23,937 nucleotides of DNA from a virus: IMG/VR virus record IMGVR_UViG_3300030020_000105, positions 1 through 23,937 of that record; one strand, given 5' to 3'. The notes under the pieces were generated by a model, which ran no database searches, was not told the DNA's origin, and saw only the letters and a list, made by a program, of their open reading frames with translations. Shown in pieces: positions 4,555 to 20,669 of this stretch. The position numbers were made by a program, and so were the translations under genes. The number at the start of each line of letters is the position of its first letter. Positions within the stretch are counted from its first letter, which is position 1.

Positions 4555-4802
4555 TTGTCGATCCCCTTCGGCCAAACAACCTTCACGCGCTCGCGCAGGC
4601 GCCGCTCAGCCTCTGCGCCCTCGCGGATTCCGACATCAGCGCAGTAGGCTTCGCGCGCGCCGCGATACTGCTTGCCGACCATGCGCAAGATCGCCTGGAC
4701 GTGCTCATTTCGATGAAGGCATTCCAGCTTCCAGGCATCATCCCAGGTATCGGTAATGATGCCGCTCAGCAGCGTTACCTTGGTGCGGTTGCCGCCTGTC
4801 AT
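4551..4802 (-). CDS. DUF7696-like phage protein
   Basis: 83 aa. The segment WDDAWKLECLHRNEHVQAIL ... REAYCADVGIREGAEAERRL resembles the small phage family in which a W-x-EC motif is followed by a helical region ending in a chain of Glu/Arg, often found beside ninB and replication genes (DUF7696-type). The ATG at 4802 overlaps the HTH gene stop as ATGA, and its own stop overlaps ninB as GTGA. Function unknown; the family assignment comes from pattern memory rather than a search. Confidence 0.66.
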   Translation of the reverse strand: MTGGNRTKVTLLSGIITDTWDDAWKLECLHRNEHVQAILRMVGKQYRGAREAYCADVGIREGAEAERRLRERVKVVWPKGIDK

Positions 4803-5026
4803 TGCGCAGAGTCCTCCAGTTCAAACGGAGTACGCTGCCATGCCCAGCGAGCCGACACCCCATCGGTCTTCACTTCGCGAACAAGCCCGGACTGGCGGAA
4901 CGCGCGAAGCCACTCCGAAACCGTCCTGACGTGGCAACCCGTCATGGCCGCCACCTCGGGCGCCGTTCGATCCGCCTTCATCAGGCTCGCAATGATCTCG
5001 GATACGTTGTCTCGTGCTGAAGGCAT
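4799..5026 (-). CDS. Small winged-helix/HTH protein
   Basis: 75 aa. Residues 5-55 form a MarR/Mar-like winged HTH: ARDNVSEIIASLMKADRTAP EVAAMTGCHVRTVSEWLRAF, then the wing SGLVREVKTDGVSARWAW. A good Shine-Dalgarno (AAAGGATTG) precedes the ATG at 5026. Such mini-HTH proteins are common between dnaB/dnaC and nin genes in phages and may be replication accessory factors or regulators. It follows dnaB by 18 bp and is coupled to the next gene. Confidence 0.75.
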   Translation of the reverse strand: MPSARDNVSEIIASLMKADRTAPEVAAMTGCHVRTVSEWLRAFRQSGLVREVKTDGVSARWAWQRTPFELEDSAQ

Positions 5027-5044: not shown

Positions 5045-6394
5045 TTACGCCGCGTCCTGAAAACTCTTACGGAAACCTTTTCCTACCGAAGAAACGGATG
5101 CCATATGCAGCATCTCCATGCTTTCTCCCCAGCGCTGAAATCTGCCCTCAAAGTCCAGCGCAAATTCACCGCATGGCCCGGATCTATTCGCAGCCACCTC
5201 GCAGCCAATGACGCGTGTATCGCCGTTGATGTGCTCGCGTGCAGGCCACAGGAAGATCACGGCGTCGGCATCCTGCTCGATAGCACCGGAGTCCCGGAGG
5301 TCGCCCAGGTTTGGCCGCCTGCCTGCGCGCTCCTCAACTTTTCGATTGAGTTGCGAGAGCACGATTACAGCGATATCAAGCTCCTTCGATAGGGCCTTGA
5401 TGCCTCGGCTGATTTCTTCAATGTCGCTGTTTCTGTTCTGCTCTCTTTTGCTAGCAGATGAGCACAACTGCATGTAGTCGATTATGAGAACCTTTAGTCC
5501 CTTGACGCTTCTAGCCTTGGATCGAATATCGGCTATTGTCAAGCCACCTTGATCGTCCAACCACAGCGGAAGATTCAGGTTCGCCTCAATACCATCGGAG
5601 ATTCGGCTCCAACCTTCATCGGCGTTATCCTCATGCTGACCTGTCATTAGAGCGGTCAGGCTTATTCGACCGAGGTTTGCCACGGAACGATCAGCCAATT
5701 CATCCACGCCCATTTCCTGAGACAGCATCAACGTTGGCAGCGATGCCTTCGCCATCGTGGTTCCGATTTGCTGGACAAGACTGGATTTACCCACCTTTGG
5801 CCGAGCGGCTACAACGTAGACCTTGCCGGGTCGTAGGCCGCCAGAAAGGTGGCGATCAAGCCCACCAATTCGGGTGGGCCAGCCAGCAGCAATAGTGCCG
5901 TCCGCAAGGGCGTTGTATTGATCGATCCGGCCCGCCATCAGGTCGCCAATTAGGCGCGGAACCTTGGCGCTTGATCGCGCAAGACCTGAGAATAGCGCGG
6001 TAATACGCTCCGCTCGCTCCGAGCTTGGGGCGGCCTCATCCGCAATTTCTGCCGCAGCGTCGATTGCTCCTAGGATCGCCCGGCTCGCCGAAAACTCTTT
6101 CACAATCTCGACATAGCGAAGAATGCTTCGCCGGCTTGTGAGCGACAGGGCAATTTCGTTGATGGTCGAAATATCGATCTCCGAAGCCGCCCCCCGAGTC
6201 GCGTTGTGCACGGTCAGTACGTCCACCGGGTGGCCGGCAGCATGCAATCCCATGATCGCCGAATAGATCACTTGATGGTTTCGAACGGCGAAGTCCTCGC
6301 ATCTCAGCTTCGCAGAGATACGGTCAGCCGTGTCCGGCCAGTTCATGAGCGCCGCCAGGATAGCGTGCTCAGCATTCACGTCGTGATGCTTCAC
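5045..6394 (-). CDS. dnaB: Replicative DNA helicase, DnaB family
   Basis: 449 aa, the usual length for DnaB. The N-terminal primase-interaction domain covers about residues 1-100 (NAEHAILAALMNWPDTADRI). The RecA-like C-terminal domain has Walker A ARPKVGKSS (197-205), Walker B VLIIDYMQL (302-310), the Gln sensor SQLNR (347-351), the RRPNLGDLRDSGAIEQDAD arginine-finger region (359-377) and ANRSG near 402. It would unwind DNA 5'-3' as a hexamer at the phage fork. It is coupled by ATGA to the O-like protein at 6391, so initiator and helicase are made together. No DnaC/P-type loader is seen, so the phage may self-load it or use the O-like protein. Confidence 0.96.
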   Translation of the reverse strand: MKHHDVNAEHAILAALMNWPDTADRISAKLRCEDFAVRNHQVIYSAIMGLHAAGHPVDVLTVHNATRGAASEIDISTINEIALSLTSRRSILRYVEIVKEFSASRAILGAIDAAAEIADEAAPSSERAERITALFSGLARSSAKVPRLIGDLMAGRIDQYNALADGTIAAGWPTRIGGLDRHLSGGLRPGKVYVVAARPKVGKSSLVQQIGTTMAKASLPTLMLSQEMGVDELADRSVANLGRISLTALMTGQHEDNADEGWSRISDGIEANLNLPLWLDDQGGLTIADIRSKARSVKGLKVLIIDYMQLCSSASKREQNRNSDIEEISRGIKALSKELDIAVIVLSQLNRKVEERAGRRPNLGDLRDSGAIEQDADAVIFLWPAREHINGDTRVIGCEVAANRSGPCGEFALDFEGRFQRWGESMEMLHMASVSSVGKGFRKSFQDAA

Positions 6395-7164
6395 TTCGGA
6401 TTTACCTCGTCTGGTTCATGGAACTTGCCTTCTAGCGTCTCAAGGAAGTTCTCGGATTTCAGGAGCCACTCAAGGCCTAGCTCAAATGGTCGGCGACCGG
6501 GCGTCGAGCGAATGCCCATAAGAAACCCTGAGCGGGCTACGTAGGAAAAGAACCTCTCCCACCAGCCCAGCGACTGCCGGGTCTTGTCCTCATCCCAGCG
6601 GGAACGAAGCAACGCGGATCTAGAAGCGTTCCAATGCGCTGGATGCCTCGACTGAGGGCATAGGCGCTTGAAGGCCTCGACGATCTGCGTCTGAGGGCAA
6701 CGCTCCGTTTCGACCGGAGATGCAGGGGCGGGAACCGCCGCCACCTCGTCTACGGATACGGATACGTCTCCGAATACGTCTAGGTGCGCATCTGCTAGCA
6801 ATTGATTGCAGGCGATAGCGGACTCAGGCGGATTCGGGTATTTGCTCTTCTGTGCGCGAATCTGCTGACCGAAGTTGACTATTTCTAGGTAACGCTCCCC
6901 GTCCTGAGCCGGGTACACCCTTACAAGATCCGCAGCTTGAACAGCGCCAAGCCACTTACCTACGTCCGAGTCGGAAACCTTATTCAACTGCCGAGGATAC
7001 AAATGCCCACGAAGCAAGCCTACGTCTGCGAAATAGCGACCGAAGTCGTCAACCACCGACATGAGCCGGCGATAGAAGACCTCTTCGCCCCAACCCAACT
7101 TTGCGATCTTCGGGCTGGTTATGATCCCCTCGCGGAGAATCCGGTTAGGCACGGGCGATCCCAT
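6391..7164 (-). CDS. Phage replication protein, O-like with winged-helix N-terminus
   Basis: 257 aa from the ATG at 7164 (MGSPVPNRILREGIITSPKI). The segment up to about residue 100 is the N-terminal domain typical of phage replication initiators: a RILREGI start, WGEEVFYRRLMSVVDDFGRY, then DVGKWLGAVQAADLVRVYPA. The centre is a Pro/Ala linker (about 125-155). The C-terminal part has the helical FKRLCPQSRHPAHWNASRS and WWERFFSYVARSGFLMG segments common to DnaT/O-like proteins. It overlaps the upstream nuclease gene by 20 bp and is followed directly by dnaB, so it probably recognises the origin and recruits DnaB. A GTG at 7152 is an alternative start. Confidence 0.85.
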   Translation of the reverse strand: MGSPVPNRILREGIITSPKIAKLGWGEEVFYRRLMSVVDDFGRYFADVGLLRGHLYPRQLNKVSDSDVGKWLGAVQAADLVRVYPAQDGERYLEIVNFGQQIRAQKSKYPNPPESAIACNQLLADAHLDVFGDVSVSVDEVAAVPAPASPVETERCPQTQIVEAFKRLCPQSRHPAHWNASRSALLRSRWDEDKTRQSLGWWERFFSYVARSGFLMGIRSTPGRRPFELGLEWLLKSENFLETLEGKFHEPDEVNPK

Positions 7165-7956: not shown

Positions 7957-8733
7957 TCAGGATTGGCCCTCTGCAGCCTTGCGTTCCGCCGAACGGCGCT
8001 CTTGTTCCGCAATGTCTGCCACGTACTGGCGCGATTCCAGCCACTTGAAGGCCGCCTCACCATCGCGGAAGAACATCTTGGCGGCAACGGGTGCGGACAG
8101 AACGCCAGCAGTCAGCGTATCCATCGCGCGAATCTCGGGGTCGGTCGAGCATACTTGCAGCCAGCCGGCCATGCAGTGCGTTGTGCCGCAGAGGGTTTCT
8201 TCAGCACAGGTGCGCGCCTTCCATGCGTCATCGCCGTGCCAGTGGCCCATCTCCAGACGTGCGCTGTCATCCATGACGATGGCGCGCACCTTGTCCAGGC
8301 TTTCGATGGATTGTTCGTTGGTTGCCCGCTTGGCGGCGTAAGTGCCCGTGAGGTCAGCGCCCGTGAGGTCAGCGCCCGTGAGGACAGCGTCCATGAGGAC
8401 AGCGCCCGTGAGGACAGCGCCCGTGAGGTCAGCGCCCGTGAGGTCAGCGCCCGTGAGGACAGCGCCCGTGAGGACAGCGCCCGTGAGGACAGCGTCCCTG
8501 AGGTCAGCGTCCCTGAGGTCAGCGTCCCTGAGGTCAGCGTCCCTGAGGTCAGCGTCCCTGAGGACAGCGCCCGTGAGGTCAGCGTCCCTGAGGTCAGCGC
8601 CCGTGAGGACAGCGCCCGTTTCACCCGCCCTCTCCAGTGCATGTCGCGTCCGCAGACCGCTGGCGATTTCGTCCGGGACTTCGCACTCGAAAAGAACGGC
8701 GCCCGAGAAGCGGTGTTTGATTTGGTGGAGCAT
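7957..8733 (-). CDS. Pentapeptide-repeat protein
   Basis: 258 aa. Residues 1-37 are a non-repeat cap. Residues 38-131 are an unbroken run of about 19 pentapeptides of the A(D/V)L(T/R)(G/D) type, which folds as a right-handed quadrilateral beta-helix. Residues 132-258 are a separate domain with [20 protein letters not shown], known to me from phage proteins of unknown function. Some pentapeptide proteins mimic DNA and bind gyrase (Qnr, MfpA); nothing here proves that. The gene is monocistronic: it has its own operator-overlapped promoter (8759-8788), a Shine-Dalgarno (AGGAACC) before the ATG at 8733, and terminators on both sides. It is thus separated from the early operon it interrupts. Confidence 0.88.
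8341..8625 (-). repeat. 15-bp tandem array encoding pentapeptides
   Basis: About 19 adjoining 15-bp units on the plus strand of the form agcg(c/t)cc(c/a)(g/c)tgagg(t/a)c, varying mainly at three positions. They lie in frame inside the pentapeptide-repeat gene. The near-identity of units at silent as well as coding positions points to recent expansion or homogenisation by unequal recombination or slippage. Not a CRISPR: there are no spacers. Confidence 0.95.
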
Positions 8734-13739: not shown

Positions 13740-14098
13740 TCGCGCGCCCGACCATGACATCCGAGGACATGCGGAGCCTGCGTGAGTTCTTGGACTCGCC
13801 CGCCGGGAAGACGATGCTTGGCCAGATCAATGACGCGTTCCACGTCCCGCCCATGAGCATCGACCAGCCGGACGATTTCTGGCGCCCGAGTCCTCCCAGC
13901 TCCACGCCATACCCTCTGGATACCGAAATCTCGAACGACATTCCGCCCAGCCACTCGCGTACTTTTCGGCCGGCCCACGCCAGGCTGGCTCGTCAGGTGA
14001 GCTACTTCCCGATCATCATCGTCACCATTCTTTCCACCGCAGCCTGCGCCGCCATGATTGGCTGGTTCGTGTCGGCTGCTTTGAAAGGCACCCCATGA
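13736..14098 (+). CDS. Membrane-anchored hypothetical protein (120 aa)
   Basis: 120 aa starting MIARPTMTSEDMRSLREFLD; the start overlaps the previous stop as ATGA. The first 45 residues are helical and soluble, the centre is Pro/Ser-rich, and residues about 90-114 form one membrane helix (VSYFPIIIVTILSTAACAAM) near the C-terminus, suggesting a tail-anchored inner-membrane protein with its bulk in the cytoplasm. Early-expressed small membrane proteins of phages often act on the host or in exclusion; none of that is shown here. Confidence 0.7.
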   Translation: MIARPTMTSEDMRSLREFLDSPAGKTMLGQINDAFHVPPMSIDQPDDFWRPSPPSSTPYPLDTEISNDIPPSHSRTFRPAHARLARQVSYFPIIIVTILSTAACAAMIGWFVSAALKGTP

Positions 14099-14241
14099 AC
14101 CAACACCACCTCTACCGCATGTATAGCTCGTCCTGGACTGGGGTAGCCCCTCGATCAGAGGGCCAGCGCTGGCCTGGCGCACCTTGCCGATTTCACAACG
14201 GGTGGTTTCGGAGGCTGATTCTGTTGATTGCGGGTCATTGA
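14095..14241 (+). CDS. Possible small protein (48 aa) closing the operon
   Basis: An open frame MNQHHLYRMYSSSWTGVAPR..., ending WFRRLILLIAGH. Its ATG overlaps the preceding stop as ATGA. Composition is basic and aromatic with a short hydrophobic end. Its stop lies inside the -35 of the promoter at 14238. The overlap supports translation, but no family is recognised and the length gives little statistical support. Confidence 0.42.
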   Translation: MNQHHLYRMYSSSWTGVAPRSEGQRWPGAPCRFHNGWFRRLILLIAGH

Positions 14242-14267
14242 CCGCGTTCATTGGTGCTTGCTATGAT
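14238..14267 (+). promoter_or_regulatory. Strong operator-free promoter
   Basis: -35 TTGACC (14238-14243), 18-bp spacer, extended -10 TGC-TATGAT (-10 at 14262-14267). It lacks the ATCGC-N4-GCGAT palindrome; an inexact inverted repeat (GCGGGTC-att-GACCGC, about 14230-14246) surrounds the -35 instead. It would start transcription near 14274, just before a long-hairpin RNA. Confidence 0.72.
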
Positions 14268-14274
14268 GACTGCA

Positions 14275-14400
14275 CTGACTCTTGTGGCGGAACCATGGGG
14301 AGTCGGGAAAGCAGAGCCCGAAGGGCACTGCGTGTTCCAGCCGAAAGGTGTCCCCGAATTCCGCCTCGGGGATGAGCGCGCAGTGCCCTTCGGGCTTTGT
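14275..14400 (+). ncRNA. Candidate long-hairpin RNA
   Basis: AGCCCGAAGGGCACTGCG (14315-14332) pairs perfectly with 14379-14396. With wobbles the stem extends to about 27 bp (14311-14337 with 14374-14400). The apical region holds a second hairpin, TCCCCGA (14351-14357) with TCGGGGA (14366-14372). The descending arm ends in TTTGTTCGTTT, weakly terminator-like. It starts about 40 nt after a strong promoter. The overlapping open frames have weak starts (TTG) and no ribosome sites. No Rfam family is assigned with confidence; possible roles are an antitermination RNA like HK022 put, an antisense regulator or a leader. Confidence 0.55.
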
Positions 14401-14732
14401 TCGTTTGGCGTCCGGTCGCGTCGTCAGTGACGAGTCAATGCCCCAGCAATCCGGGCGCCGGAAAGTAGACCAGATGAAGCGGAAGGCTGAAAGCCGCGAC
14501 ACGGTAGCCAGAACTTGTGGCCGGTGCAACACCGATGAATCCGTGGGACTGGCCGCACAGACACGTCCGGGACTAAGGGAGTTGACTCGATCCTTAGCAT
14601 GTCTGTCCACTTCGGTGGGGTGAATCCTTCCTTGCCCTAAGAACGGGTAGGGGAGGCCTTTGGGTGAATTCCCCATCGATACGATCCAAGACCTTGCTCC
14701 AGATCAAGCATCAAACAACGGAAAATACTCCT
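14401..14732 (+). other. Structured leader before the recT operon; no clear gene
   Basis: About 330 bp with no convincing gene. Hairpins include CGGTG-caa-CACCG (14522-14534) and a stacked stem: ACAGACA (14557-14563) with TGTCTGT (14600-14606), inside it CTAAGG (14573-14578) with CCTTAG (14592-14597), and GAG/CTC within that. GGGTGAAT(T)CC occurs twice (14618-14627 and 14662-14672). Probably the 5' untranslated part of the mRNA from the 14238 promoter. Confidence 0.45.
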
Positions 14733-14948
14733 ATGCGATCCCTAACCTATGCCCCCATGTACGGCCCGACAGCCGCCCGCCAGATCATCGAATCGGCCTG
14801 CATTGGCAATCCGCATTTCCATGACCGACAAGTTCGCGATGATGTCACGGTGACGTTCGAACACGCGCAGCATTCGAGCAAAGCCATCGCCACGCATGAG
14901 GCAGGTTGGGTTGTTGCGACGGCCTGGGTCAATGGGGATGACGCATGA
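14733..14948 (+). CDS. Hypothetical protein (71 aa) upstream of recT
   Basis: 71 aa starting MRSLTYAPMYGPTAARQIIE. A compact alpha/beta pattern ends DDVTVTFEHAQHSSKAIATH and VVATAWVNGDDA. Its stop overlaps the recT start as ATGA, so the two are coupled. The ATG at 14733 has only weak ribosome-site support; an upstream start at 14664 is in frame but would place the structured leader inside the protein. Family not recognised. Confidence 0.66.
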   Translation: MRSLTYAPMYGPTAARQIIESACIGNPHFHDRQVRDDVTVTFEHAQHSSKAIATHEAGWVVATAWVNGDDA

Positions 14949-15937
14949 GCGGCGATCTCATCCAATTCGCCGAGAAGACGATTCTCGACCTCGCGCCGGC
15001 TTTCGAGCGGGTCTGCGTGGACAAGTCCATTGTCTTCGCGCGGGAAGCTGAATTTGCCATCCAGATCATCACGAATTCGGACTACTGCCTCAAGATCGCG
15101 AAGCAGAACCCGCAGAGCGTGCGCGATGCTGTGACCAACATCGCAGCGATTGGCGTCAGCCTGAACCCGGCGCGCAAGCAGGCATACCTCGTGCCGCGCA
15201 AGGGCGGAATCACGCTGGTCATCAGCTACATGGGCCTGCTGGACATTGCGATCCAGTCGGGATCGATCCTTTGGGGACAGGCTGAAATCGTCTACCTGAA
15301 CGATTCGTTCGAGTTGAGCGGATTTGACCAGCCCCCGAAGCATGGGCGCAATCCGTTCTCGAAAGATCGCGGGGAAATTGTTGGGGTCTACGTCGTGGTC
15401 AAGACGCGTGATGGAGACTATCTGACGACGACGATGACCGCCAGCGAAGTGTGGGACGTGCGCGAGCGTTCGGACGGCTGGCAGGCGTTCGTGAAGGACA
15501 ACACGAAACGCTGCCCATGGAACACGGACGAAGGCGAGATGATCAAGAAAACGGTCATCAAGCGTGGCTACAAAACTTGGCCCAAGACCGAACGCCTGGA
15601 CACCGCCGTACACCACCTCAACACCACGGCTGGCGAGGGAATCACATTCGAGTCGCCGGCTGCGCTCGCCGCGCCCCAGGTGATCGATGGCGAGCCGAAG
15701 GAAATCCCTCGCGAACAGGTCATCCACAACGCTGCGATGGCCTGCATCCAGAAGTTCGAGTCCGGCGACGAAATGGGCGCATACGAGGAAGTTGAATGGA
15801 TCACCGACAGCGACGAGAAGATGCTGCTGTGGGGCATCTTCGGCAAGGCCCGATCCAAACTCCGAAACACCCTGAAGCGGCTCGCCGAAGAGGCGCGCGC
15901 CAAGGAACAACAACTGAAGAAGGGCGGCACGAAATGA
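14945..15937 (+). CDS. recT: RecT-family single-strand annealing recombinase
   Basis: 330 aa. The RecT core is evident: FAREAEFAIQIITNSDYCLK (about 37-56), NIAAIGVSLNPARKQAYLVP (76-95), GGITLVISYMGLLDIAIQSG (98-117), then WGQAEIVYLNDSFELSG and KDNTKRCPWNTDEGEMIKKT, which matches the conserved W-x-x-D-x-x-E-M-x-x-K-T signature. It anneals complementary ssDNA at breaks and replication ends. The C-terminal 90 residues are acidic, then Lys-rich. The start overlaps the small gene upstream, and the stop overlaps the coiled-coil gene downstream as ATGA. The exonuclease (RecE or YqaJ type) that often accompanies RecT is not recognisable next to it. Confidence 0.95.
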   Translation: MSGDLIQFAEKTILDLAPAFERVCVDKSIVFAREAEFAIQIITNSDYCLKIAKQNPQSVRDAVTNIAAIGVSLNPARKQAYLVPRKGGITLVISYMGLLDIAIQSGSILWGQAEIVYLNDSFELSGFDQPPKHGRNPFSKDRGEIVGVYVVVKTRDGDYLTTTMTASEVWDVRERSDGWQAFVKDNTKRCPWNTDEGEMIKKTVIKRGYKTWPKTERLDTAVHHLNTTAGEGITFESPAALAAPQVIDGEPKEIPREQVIHNAAMACIQKFESGDEMGAYEEVEWITDSDEKMLLWGIFGKARSKLRNTLKRLAEEARAKEQQLKKGGTK

Positions 15938-17136
15938 CTGAAGCTATCGAACACCAAGCACCGAATGCTACGGCGGTCGCGATCCGTAAGAGCCTCGAAC
16001 AGATCGACGGCGCACTTGTTGAATTCGAAAAGATCGAAGCAGGCTTCGCTGACCTGGAGGCGGCGCACCCGTCGAATCTCGCGTGTGATGTGACGACCAC
16101 GAAGGGCATGAAAGAAGCCATCGCCGGCCGCGCCGCATGGCGTGAGCCCCGCATTGCCACGGAGAAGGCTCGCAAGGCCGGAAAGGCTCCTGTCCTGGCG
16201 CTTGGCAAAGACCTGGATGCACGCGCCGCCGCAATCACGGAGCGGCTGGAAGCCGGCGAAGCAAACTATCACGAGCAGATCAAGGTCGAGGAATTCCGCA
16301 AAGCTGCCGAGGCCGAAGAAAAGCGCCTTGCCGAAGTGAAACGCCGCGAGTCGCAGAGCCTCGCGCTTGCCGCTATCCGCAATCGCTCGTTCGCCGTGCA
16401 GGGAAAGTCCGCCAACGTGATCAGCGGCGCAATCGTGACGCTGCATACCGATGAGGCCGAAGGGTTTGGGCTGGATCGCGACTACTCCGCCCTGGGCAAG
16501 ATCGCTGTTGACGAAACACGCGAGAAGTTGCGCGACATGCACCAGGCTGCAATCGAGCGCGAAGCCGAAGATGCGGCGCGCAAGGCTGAAGCGGAAGCGC
16601 TGGCAAAGGAGCGCGCCGAGCTGCAACGACTGCGCGCCGAACAGGATGCACGCGACCGCGAAGCACGCGAAAAGTTGGACGCCGAACGCCGCGAGGCTGA
16701 CGCCATCCGCGCAAAGGCAGACGCCGAAGCGCGCGCCCTGCGGGATGCCGAAGAGGCGCGCCTGCGGGCCGAGCGTGCGGAGCATCAGGCGAAGCTCGAT
16801 GCCGAGCGCGCCGAACTCCGCAAGGCCCAGGACGAGGCTGATCGCGTGACACGCGCCGCTCAGGCTGCGGCAATCAAGGCGAATCAGGAGAAAGAAGCCG
16901 CCGCACACGCCGAACGCATCGCTGCCCAACAACGCGAAGAGGCCGAACGCGCCCATGCCGCCCGCATCGCGCACAAGAAGGCTGAAGCCGCGCACTTCGC
17001 CGAGGCCAAGGGCCGGGCCGCCTGGGCCGACCTTGCCGCTGTCTGCGAAATGGTTTTGGCCGGCGAGAAGATCGCTGTCATCCGAGTCGCTGCCGCGGCA
17101 GCACTGGAGAAGGCCGGCAGGATCGCCGCATCGTGA
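15934..17136 (+). CDS. Long coiled-coil protein of the RecT operon
   Basis: 400 aa, extremely rich in Ala, Glu and Arg. Residues 15-110 (AIRKSLEQIDGALVEFEKIE ... TTKGMKEAIAGRAAWREPRI ... KAPVLALGKDLDARAAAITE) match a helical N-terminal domain I know from phage operons with RecT. Residues 115-150 and about 205-365 are near-continuous heptad-like helix, interrupted by a short globular patch (SLALAAIRNRSFAVQGKSAN...ISGAIVTLHTDEAEGF). It probably forms an elongated dimer that scaffolds DNA or protein. It takes the position where an exonuclease is usual, but I see no nuclease motif. It overlaps recT (ATGA) and the next gene (GTGA). Confidence 0.8.
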   Translation: MTEAIEHQAPNATAVAIRKSLEQIDGALVEFEKIEAGFADLEAAHPSNLACDVTTTKGMKEAIAGRAAWREPRIATEKARKAGKAPVLALGKDLDARAAAITERLEAGEANYHEQIKVEEFRKAAEAEEKRLAEVKRRESQSLALAAIRNRSFAVQGKSANVISGAIVTLHTDEAEGFGLDRDYSALGKIAVDETREKLRDMHQAAIEREAEDAARKAEAEALAKERAELQRLRAEQDARDREAREKLDAERREADAIRAKADAEARALRDAEEARLRAERAEHQAKLDAERAELRKAQDEADRVTRAAQAAAIKANQEKEAAAHAERIAAQQREEAERAHAARIAHKKAEAAHFAEAKGRAAWADLAAVCEMVLAGEKIAVIRVAAAAALEKAGRIAAS

Positions 17137-20550: not shown

Positions 20551-20669
20551 ATGCTGCCCCGCTGACTATCGAGAGCCTGAAGGCAAACACCGAGGAGGGC
20601 TGGCCCTGGTGGGGTGAGGATGCAGCCCTGAATGACAAAAGCCCCGGAAACGGGGCTTTTCTTGTCTGA
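20547..20669 (+). CDS. Possible small protein (40 aa) reading through the terminator
   Basis: The ATG at 20547 overlaps the previous stop as ATGA and opens MNAAPLTIESLKANTEEGWP WWGEDAALND, which then continues through the terminator stem (KSPGNGAFLV) to a TGA at 20667. The first 30 residues look protein-like. Translation through the hairpin could affect termination. It may equally be a chance frame. Confidence 0.42.
   Translation: MNAAPLTIESLKANTEEGWPWWGEDAALNDKSPGNGAFLV
20637..20660. terminator. Bidirectional rho-independent terminator
   Basis: AAAAGCCCCG-GAAA-CGGGGCTTTT: a 10-bp perfect stem with a GNRA-type tetraloop, A-run on one side and T-run on the other. It ends the rightward early operon and, on the minus strand, the lysis operon 23 bp after the stop at 20683. 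Confidence 0.95.

Follow-up and report, generated by a model that had tools for sequence, protein, structure and literature searches.

The recombination operon of the window (the whole 23,937-nt stretch of phage DNA analysed here) is preceded by a strong promoter and a long hairpin, which raises the question of what this locus encodes. The original prediction read it as an RNA gene outside the phage's own operator control. Comparison with other phages provided good support, at the level of sequence and predicted fold, for a new structured RNA family in phages, of which the window RNA is one member.

The promoter was borne out as an extended -10 promoter that lacks the phage palindrome (Table 1). 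It had the top sigma70-like score across the whole 23.9-kb IMG/VR fragment, a score reached by none of 400 random 100-nt stretches. The ATCGC-N4-GCGAT palindrome, which was found exactly or with one mismatch between the hexamers of four other promoters of the GATACT/TAACAT type, was absent from the promoter at 14238. The view of a dedicated RNA gene free of this operator was supported, and such a gene may be expressed in a lysogen as well as during infection. The stop codon of a 48-aa ORF (14095-14241) overlaps the -35 box. This ORF (MNQHHLYRMYSSSWTGVAPRSEGQRW...) is conserved in two contigs with related RecT proteins, L003 and L004, and had no Pfam match.

The predicted transcript starts at about 14274, is about 130 nt long and contains two hairpins, HP1 followed by the long stem P2. 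The region 14238-14400 folded at -92.2 kcal/mol, compared with -60.1 ± 4.1 kcal/mol for shuffled sequences (z = -7.8), and none of 200 shuffles was as good. The long stem with an apical hairpin and a T-rich edge (CTTTGTTCGTTT in the DNA, 14395-14407) proved to be real, with 28 bp instead of the roughly 27 bp first claimed. Its arms are 88% complementary across 26 nt with G-U pairs excluded, and its apex is a two-hairpin branch. The earlier reading overlooked HP1 and the complementarity of its loop strand (A) to a strand in the apex of the long stem (A'). In the window this match (A:A') is 7 bp long, GGCGGAA with TTCCGCC, with a p of about 0.07 when taken alone. The hairpin was rejected as coding sequence because the ORFs running through it differ between the window and L003. 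The stretch of approximately 300 nt that separates the RNA from the next gene (14410-14735) contained no convincing ORF or promoter; it is 97% identical in L003 and mildly structured (z = -2.1).

Table 1. Features of the RNA locus in the window, and lengths of the A:A' match in the family.
Feature	Position	Strand	Description
Sigma70-like promoter	14238-14267	+	-35 box TTGACC (14238-14243), 18-nt spacer, extended -10 TGcTATGAT; no operator palindrome; predicted start ~14274
Operator-like palindrome ATCGC-N4-GCGAT	3215, 8762, 12539, 12640, 17768		Between or near promoter hexamers
HP1, putative 5' kissing hairpin	14275-14306	+	Loop strand A, GGCGGAA (14286-14292); from folds
A-rich linker and CAGAG motif	14307-14316	+	CAGAG at 14312-14316
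P2, 5' arm of the 28-bp stem	14310-14337	+	From fold and pair comparison
HP3, apical hairpin CCGAAAGG	14340-14349	+	From fold
HP4, apical hairpin	14350-14373	+	Loop strand A', TTCCGCC (14359-14365), complementary to the HP1 loop
P2, 3' arm	14374-14401	+	From fold
U-rich tract CUUUGUUCGUUU	14395-14407	+	Intrinsic-terminator-like end; imperfect in the window, UUUUU or longer in other members
A:A' match in window, L003, L032, L140, L132			7, 12, 8, 9 and 7 bp, respectively
A:A' match in L093, L544, AH02, Lbo			10/11, 9-10, 7 and 7 bp, respectively

The RecT of contig L003 is 100% identical to that of the window, and the two sequences are 97% identical downstream of window position 14385 and divergent upstream of it. 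The matching site in L003 comprises a promoter, HP1, the linker AAGCAGAG and a 24-bp P2 of mostly different sequence, with an apex made of a GAAA hairpin and a second apical hairpin, and a U-tract at the end. Its HP1 loop, CAGGGCGGGAAC, is complementary to the apical strand GTTCCCGCCCTG over 12 bp. Both the predicted stem and the predicted loop-loop match are retained between the window and L003 through changes on both sides. The palindrome of the window's regulated promoters is also present in the L003 contig. In two more distant RecT relatives, L004 and L005, a promoter and a 60-aa ORF replace the RNA, suggesting that the RNA element is an accessory cassette. The different cargo of L004 at this site (about 4686-4940) consists of a TTGACG-17-GATACT promoter with an inner TCGG-N4-CCGA palindrome, followed by the 60-aa ORF.

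Nine members of this previously unnamed RNA family, with predicted lengths of about 110-150 nt, were found in unrelated phages: seven in IMG/VR (the window, L003, L032, L140, L132, L093 and L544) and two in cultured phages (Pseudomonas phage AH02 and Leptolyngbya phage Lbo-JY16, or Lbo). Each combines a CAG-containing linker, a P2 of at least 18 bp (19-28 bp across the members), a terminal U-tract and an HP1 loop of which at least 6 nt are complementary to A'. Hairpins homologous to the window HP1 were found in L003, L032, L140, AH02 and Lbo. L032 (with L031) came from a scan of RecT relatives for the same layout in which the loop match, here 8 bp, was among the search criteria, and L140, L132, L093 and L544 came from scans of IMG/VR with the pattern CAGAGCC...GGCTTTTTT, which did not require a loop match. 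CAG lies just 5' of P2 or at its base in all nine members; CAGAG was part of the search pattern for the last four, and L003, L032, AH02 and Lbo (AATCAG in both cultured phages) were located without it. A promoter-like site was present in 7 of 7 IMG/VR members, with a predicted start 19-62 nt upstream of CAGAG. Lbo has a promoter-like site, TTGACT-16-TATTCT, at the matching distance, and the AH02 promoter, judged by eye, is weak. With these sites at such a spacing and the U-tract at the end, the locus is built like a standalone gene for a small RNA.

Rfam contained no family for the window RNA or for the other members, at the gathering score and at E values up to 5, and the sub-threshold matches to bglG, snoRNA and mir-191 were dismissed as chance. 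On our own covariance model of the P2 part (R1), the six training members, a set of pre-selected hairpins, scored 45-58 bits. Most other matches stayed under 30 bits; a few long hairpins reached 33-41 bits and were judged separately. R1 was run on six cultured phages chosen solely because their terminase, portal or RecT resembled those of member phages, and it gave a weak match (23 bits) in AH02, exactly within the 137-nt intergenic gap after ninB (AH02 29505-29625). In the predicted fold, HP1 carries the loop UUGGCGG; after it come P2, a small hairpin, CCGCCAA as an unpaired stretch, P2' and U8. A BLAST search with the AH02 RNA led to Leptolyngbya phage Lbo-JY16 and Plectonema phage Lbo240-yong2 (71% over 83%). 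Between AH02 and Lbo, 19 of the 30 predicted pairs were unchanged, 2 were changed on one side and 9 on both sides, and none was broken, while the kissing strands were identical.

Two hairpins that were first counted as members, in L342 and L374 (39 bits with R1), are now regarded as unconfirmed: their loop match was not significant, and the supposed strand A was the -35 box of a promoter starting at CAGAG. These long CAGAG hairpins with a U-tract and without HP1 (L342:13197-13340 and L374:1390-1525, both on the minus strand) may represent a truncated class of relatives or plain terminators. L145 and L448 from the pattern scans were rejected as plain long terminators with CAGAG, the latter lying between host metabolic genes. 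BLAST searches with the members in phages, plasmids and E. coli genomes returned nothing except the Leptolyngbya phages for AH02. Neither a pattern scan covering 84,980 species genomes nor model and BLAST searches of about 370-400 genomes of Burkholderiales and Gammaproteobacteria showed a clear prophage copy; only about 15 model candidates were scored per genome, so this is weak evidence of absence from prophages. The pattern TTGGCGGG...TGTCCGCCAA matched three times in 391 genomes, each time by chance.

The exact loop complementarity of the nine members had a combined Fisher p of about 1e-9 against shuffles, a value in which AH02 and Lbo, sharing the same loop letters, are not independent and which includes L032, selected partly by its loop match; the values for single loci were modest. 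A second test of loop complementarity used dinucleotide shuffles and a partly different member set. A generalised descriptor (CAG, P2, U-tract and a loop match of at least 7, not tied to CAGAG) was run over 5.3 Mb with the window's own copies excluded, and it recovered only L003, L544, L132, L140, L083 (the L032 sequence), AH02 and Lbo. These had at least 18 pairs with at most 2 mismatches, and everything else had 14-16 pairs with 4 mismatches. Covariation of the P2 pairs on padded alignments exceeded 500 of 500 shuffles and all slid controls, in matches chosen for having the stem and with pairs that were partly chosen. MAFFT aligned the nine members only with padding; alignments A3 and A4 were forced with N-padded fragments, and the pair counts rest on manual placement of the arms. 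An independent model built from AH02 and Lbo only (R2) placed its best match at the right spot in L003, L093, L140, L032, L132 and L544, with weak E values (0.003-0.8); within the window the RNA scored lower than a plain terminator at 20632. A stem not conserved by compensatory changes had been set beforehand as the refuting outcome; such changes were observed between the window and L003, in the padded alignments, and between AH02 and Lbo.

As the original prediction held, the window RNA sits at the start of the recombination operon, and no good promoter was found between it and recT. Recombination genes also lie near the RNA in L003, L032, Lbo and AH02 (ninB) and, by ORF reading, in L093; the window, L003 and L032 were found through recT and so do not count as independent support for such a neighbourhood. 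The Lbo RNA stands immediately before an operon that encodes a phrog_1376 protein, the annealing protein Erf and an exonuclease, and this phrog_1376 protein weakly matches phrog_17928, the family of the window protein encoded at 15916-17136. Terminase genes are downstream of the RNA in L544 and L140, and no same-strand operon follows closely in L093 and L132. The nearest named relatives of member-phage proteins include those in Erwinia and Yersinia phages for the window RecT (50%), in Pseudomonas phages for the L544 terminase (43%), in Shewanella and Yersinia phages for the L140 terminase (45%) and, distantly, in Faecalibacterium phages for the L132 portal (26%). The cultured members infect Pseudomonas koreensis and the cyanobacterium Leptolyngbya boryana. 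Contig L567 (IMGVR_UViG_3300044844_000380), from the same phage as the L093 member, encodes on its minus strand (6068-6424) a 118-aa protein with a Pfam RNA_pol_A_CTD match (E = 1e-20), a possible transcription-hijacking factor. The window itself encodes a pentapeptide-repeat protein at 7957-8733 on the minus strand (Pfam Pentapeptide, E = 2.5e-36) in highly repetitive DNA.

The explanation that we favour, with about even confidence, is a standalone, probably constitutive accessory small RNA that has its own terminator and probably forms head-to-tail dimers by loop-loop pairing. The anatomy, the compensatory changes, the loop complementarity, the promoter-like and terminator-like flanks and the patchy spread are read directly from the sequences and their predicted folds; we infer from them that the RNA is transcribed, dimerises and acts in trans. 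A host sigma70 promoter without the phage operator would drive the RNA, and transcription would end at its own U-tract. The transcript would fold into the 5' HP1, the CAG-containing linker and a P2 rod of 19-28 bp topped by HP3 and A', and two copies would then pair A with A' to give a head-to-tail kissing dimer or chain. The assembled double-stranded rod would probably be presented in trans to a protein or RNA partner. A and A' lie at opposite ends of the rod, about 53-78 Å apart at 2.8 Å per bp, and only 7 nt in L140 and 11 nt in L032 link A to P2, so a fully folded monomer could hardly close A:A'. On this geometry, A:A' most likely pairs between two molecules, pseudoknots being outside RNAcofold-type energies. 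A bolder and tentative version is a widespread class of self-assembling phage RNAs, in which short rods with sticky loops would form head-to-tail dimers or filaments within infected or lysogenic cells, the loops would coevolve as a phage-specific code, and the assemblies would serve recombination or counter-defence.

The main rival is a conditional terminator acting in cis, in which P2 would block the recombination operon and nascent A:A' pairing would delay P2 and let polymerase through. The layout lends this reading some plausibility, since P2 stands between the genes of the 12627 promoter and recT and is not followed by a good promoter, and the RNA heads an operon in the window, L003, L032, Lbo, L544 and L140, directly before the phrog_1376/Erf/exonuclease operon in Lbo and before terminase genes in L544 and L140. 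In L140, L093 and L544, A' is also immediately next to the 3' arm of P2, but A' overlaps neither arm, unlike a classical anti-terminator, and P2 is far more stable than A:A'. The RNA moreover comes with a strong promoter of its own, no same-strand operon that could be controlled lies close downstream in L093 and L132, and the cassette is missing upstream of recT in L004 and L005; we consider such a switch possible but not probable. Free variation of the P2 sequence with persistent length and pairing, neighbours that include RecT, Erf, exonuclease and NinB, and the behaviour of an accessory cassette would also suit a decoy or counter-defence RNA in trans, whose rod of about 25 bp would titrate a host double-strand-binding enzyme or a defence protein, e.g. 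a nuclease threatening recombining phage DNA. This is a special case of the standalone RNA and not its opposite, and in this narrow form it is unlikely, as the conservation of the loops and of the CAG motif points beyond a simple duplex.

An ordinary intrinsic terminator beside a promoter, with an unusually long stem, would account for the U-tract that ends every member, and like intrinsic terminators all members have a GC-rich stem followed directly by a U-tract; long CAGAG terminators also surfaced in the pattern scans (L145 and L448). Members differ from such terminators, however, in their stem of 19-28 bp, branched apex, promoter about 25-60 nt upstream and 5' hairpin complementary to the apex. 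The dedicated promoters and the compensatory changes in cultured isolates also speak against a plain terminator, and the recurrence of HP1, the loop complementarity and the multi-branch apex in nine phages largely refutes it, leaving it quite improbable. The original claim that the fold is too long for a simple terminator was thus correct in that extra conserved structure is present, but the P2 stem, as judged from its sequence, very probably terminates transcription. The suggested HK022 put-like antitermination found no support, because the long stem with a U-tract in every member resembles an intrinsic terminator. The put RNA is a cis element of about 70 nt that acts on RNA polymerase, has two stem-loops and lacks its own terminator (PMC9378689). 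The window RNA resembles it in being a structured RNA of a phage, located between an early promoter and an operon, but at about 130 nt it is about twice as long, forms one very long branched stem plus the putative kissing hairpin HP1, ends in its own U-tract and has no Rfam match, so an RNA acting in this way on its own polymerase is very improbable. Least probable of all is a DNA-level element, with the interleaved inverted repeats serving as a replication or recombination site: the repeats do exist as DNA and recombination genes are near, but G-U pairs in the stems and the strand-specific U-tract and promoter point to RNA.

The standalone RNA was also compared with other small phage RNAs. 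The phi29 pRNA is a phage RNA of about 120-170 nt with two complementary loops that differ together between phages. The likeness is conceptual only and is limited to the two complementary loops, the oligomer here being predicted from loop complementarity; the present family occurs in unrelated tailed phages, with three members at recT and not at packaging genes, and neither the window RNA nor the other members matched the Rfam pRNA family. Natural RNA oligomers are described as rare (PMC7357161). The abiF RNA and the type III antitoxins are likewise small, phage-borne structured RNAs; abiF RNA is a motif of 36-37 nt that has a toxin gene beside it, and the type III antitoxin RNA RCd22 also ends in a terminator (PMC12373285). 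The abiF covariance model (RF03085) gave no match in the window RNA at gathering or at E up to 5 and none in the other members, and no Abi-type gene was recognised adjoining the members examined, whose neighbours were read by eye, with HMM searches on some ORFs. Racrs are small non-coding RNAs encoded alone in phage genomes that mimic CRISPR repeats (PMC10651486). In contrast to these, the stem sequence of the present family is not conserved, and the window RNA had no match to Rfam CRISPR repeat families. By sequence model or anatomy, put and abiF RNA do not fit the family, and Racrs probably do not either.

To our knowledge, few structured non-coding RNAs have been described from phages, and natural RNAs that assemble themselves through loop-loop pairing are rare. 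The present family keeps its shape and not its letters across phages of very different hosts, and its absence from Rfam makes it a new target. Since members occur in the cultured phages AH02 and Lbo-JY16, expression, assembly and effect on infection are directly testable, and the recurrent RecT, Erf, exonuclease and NinB neighbours suggest the first place to seek a role. If the proposed assembly is true, self-assembling rod RNAs would represent a new kind of natural RNA assembly.
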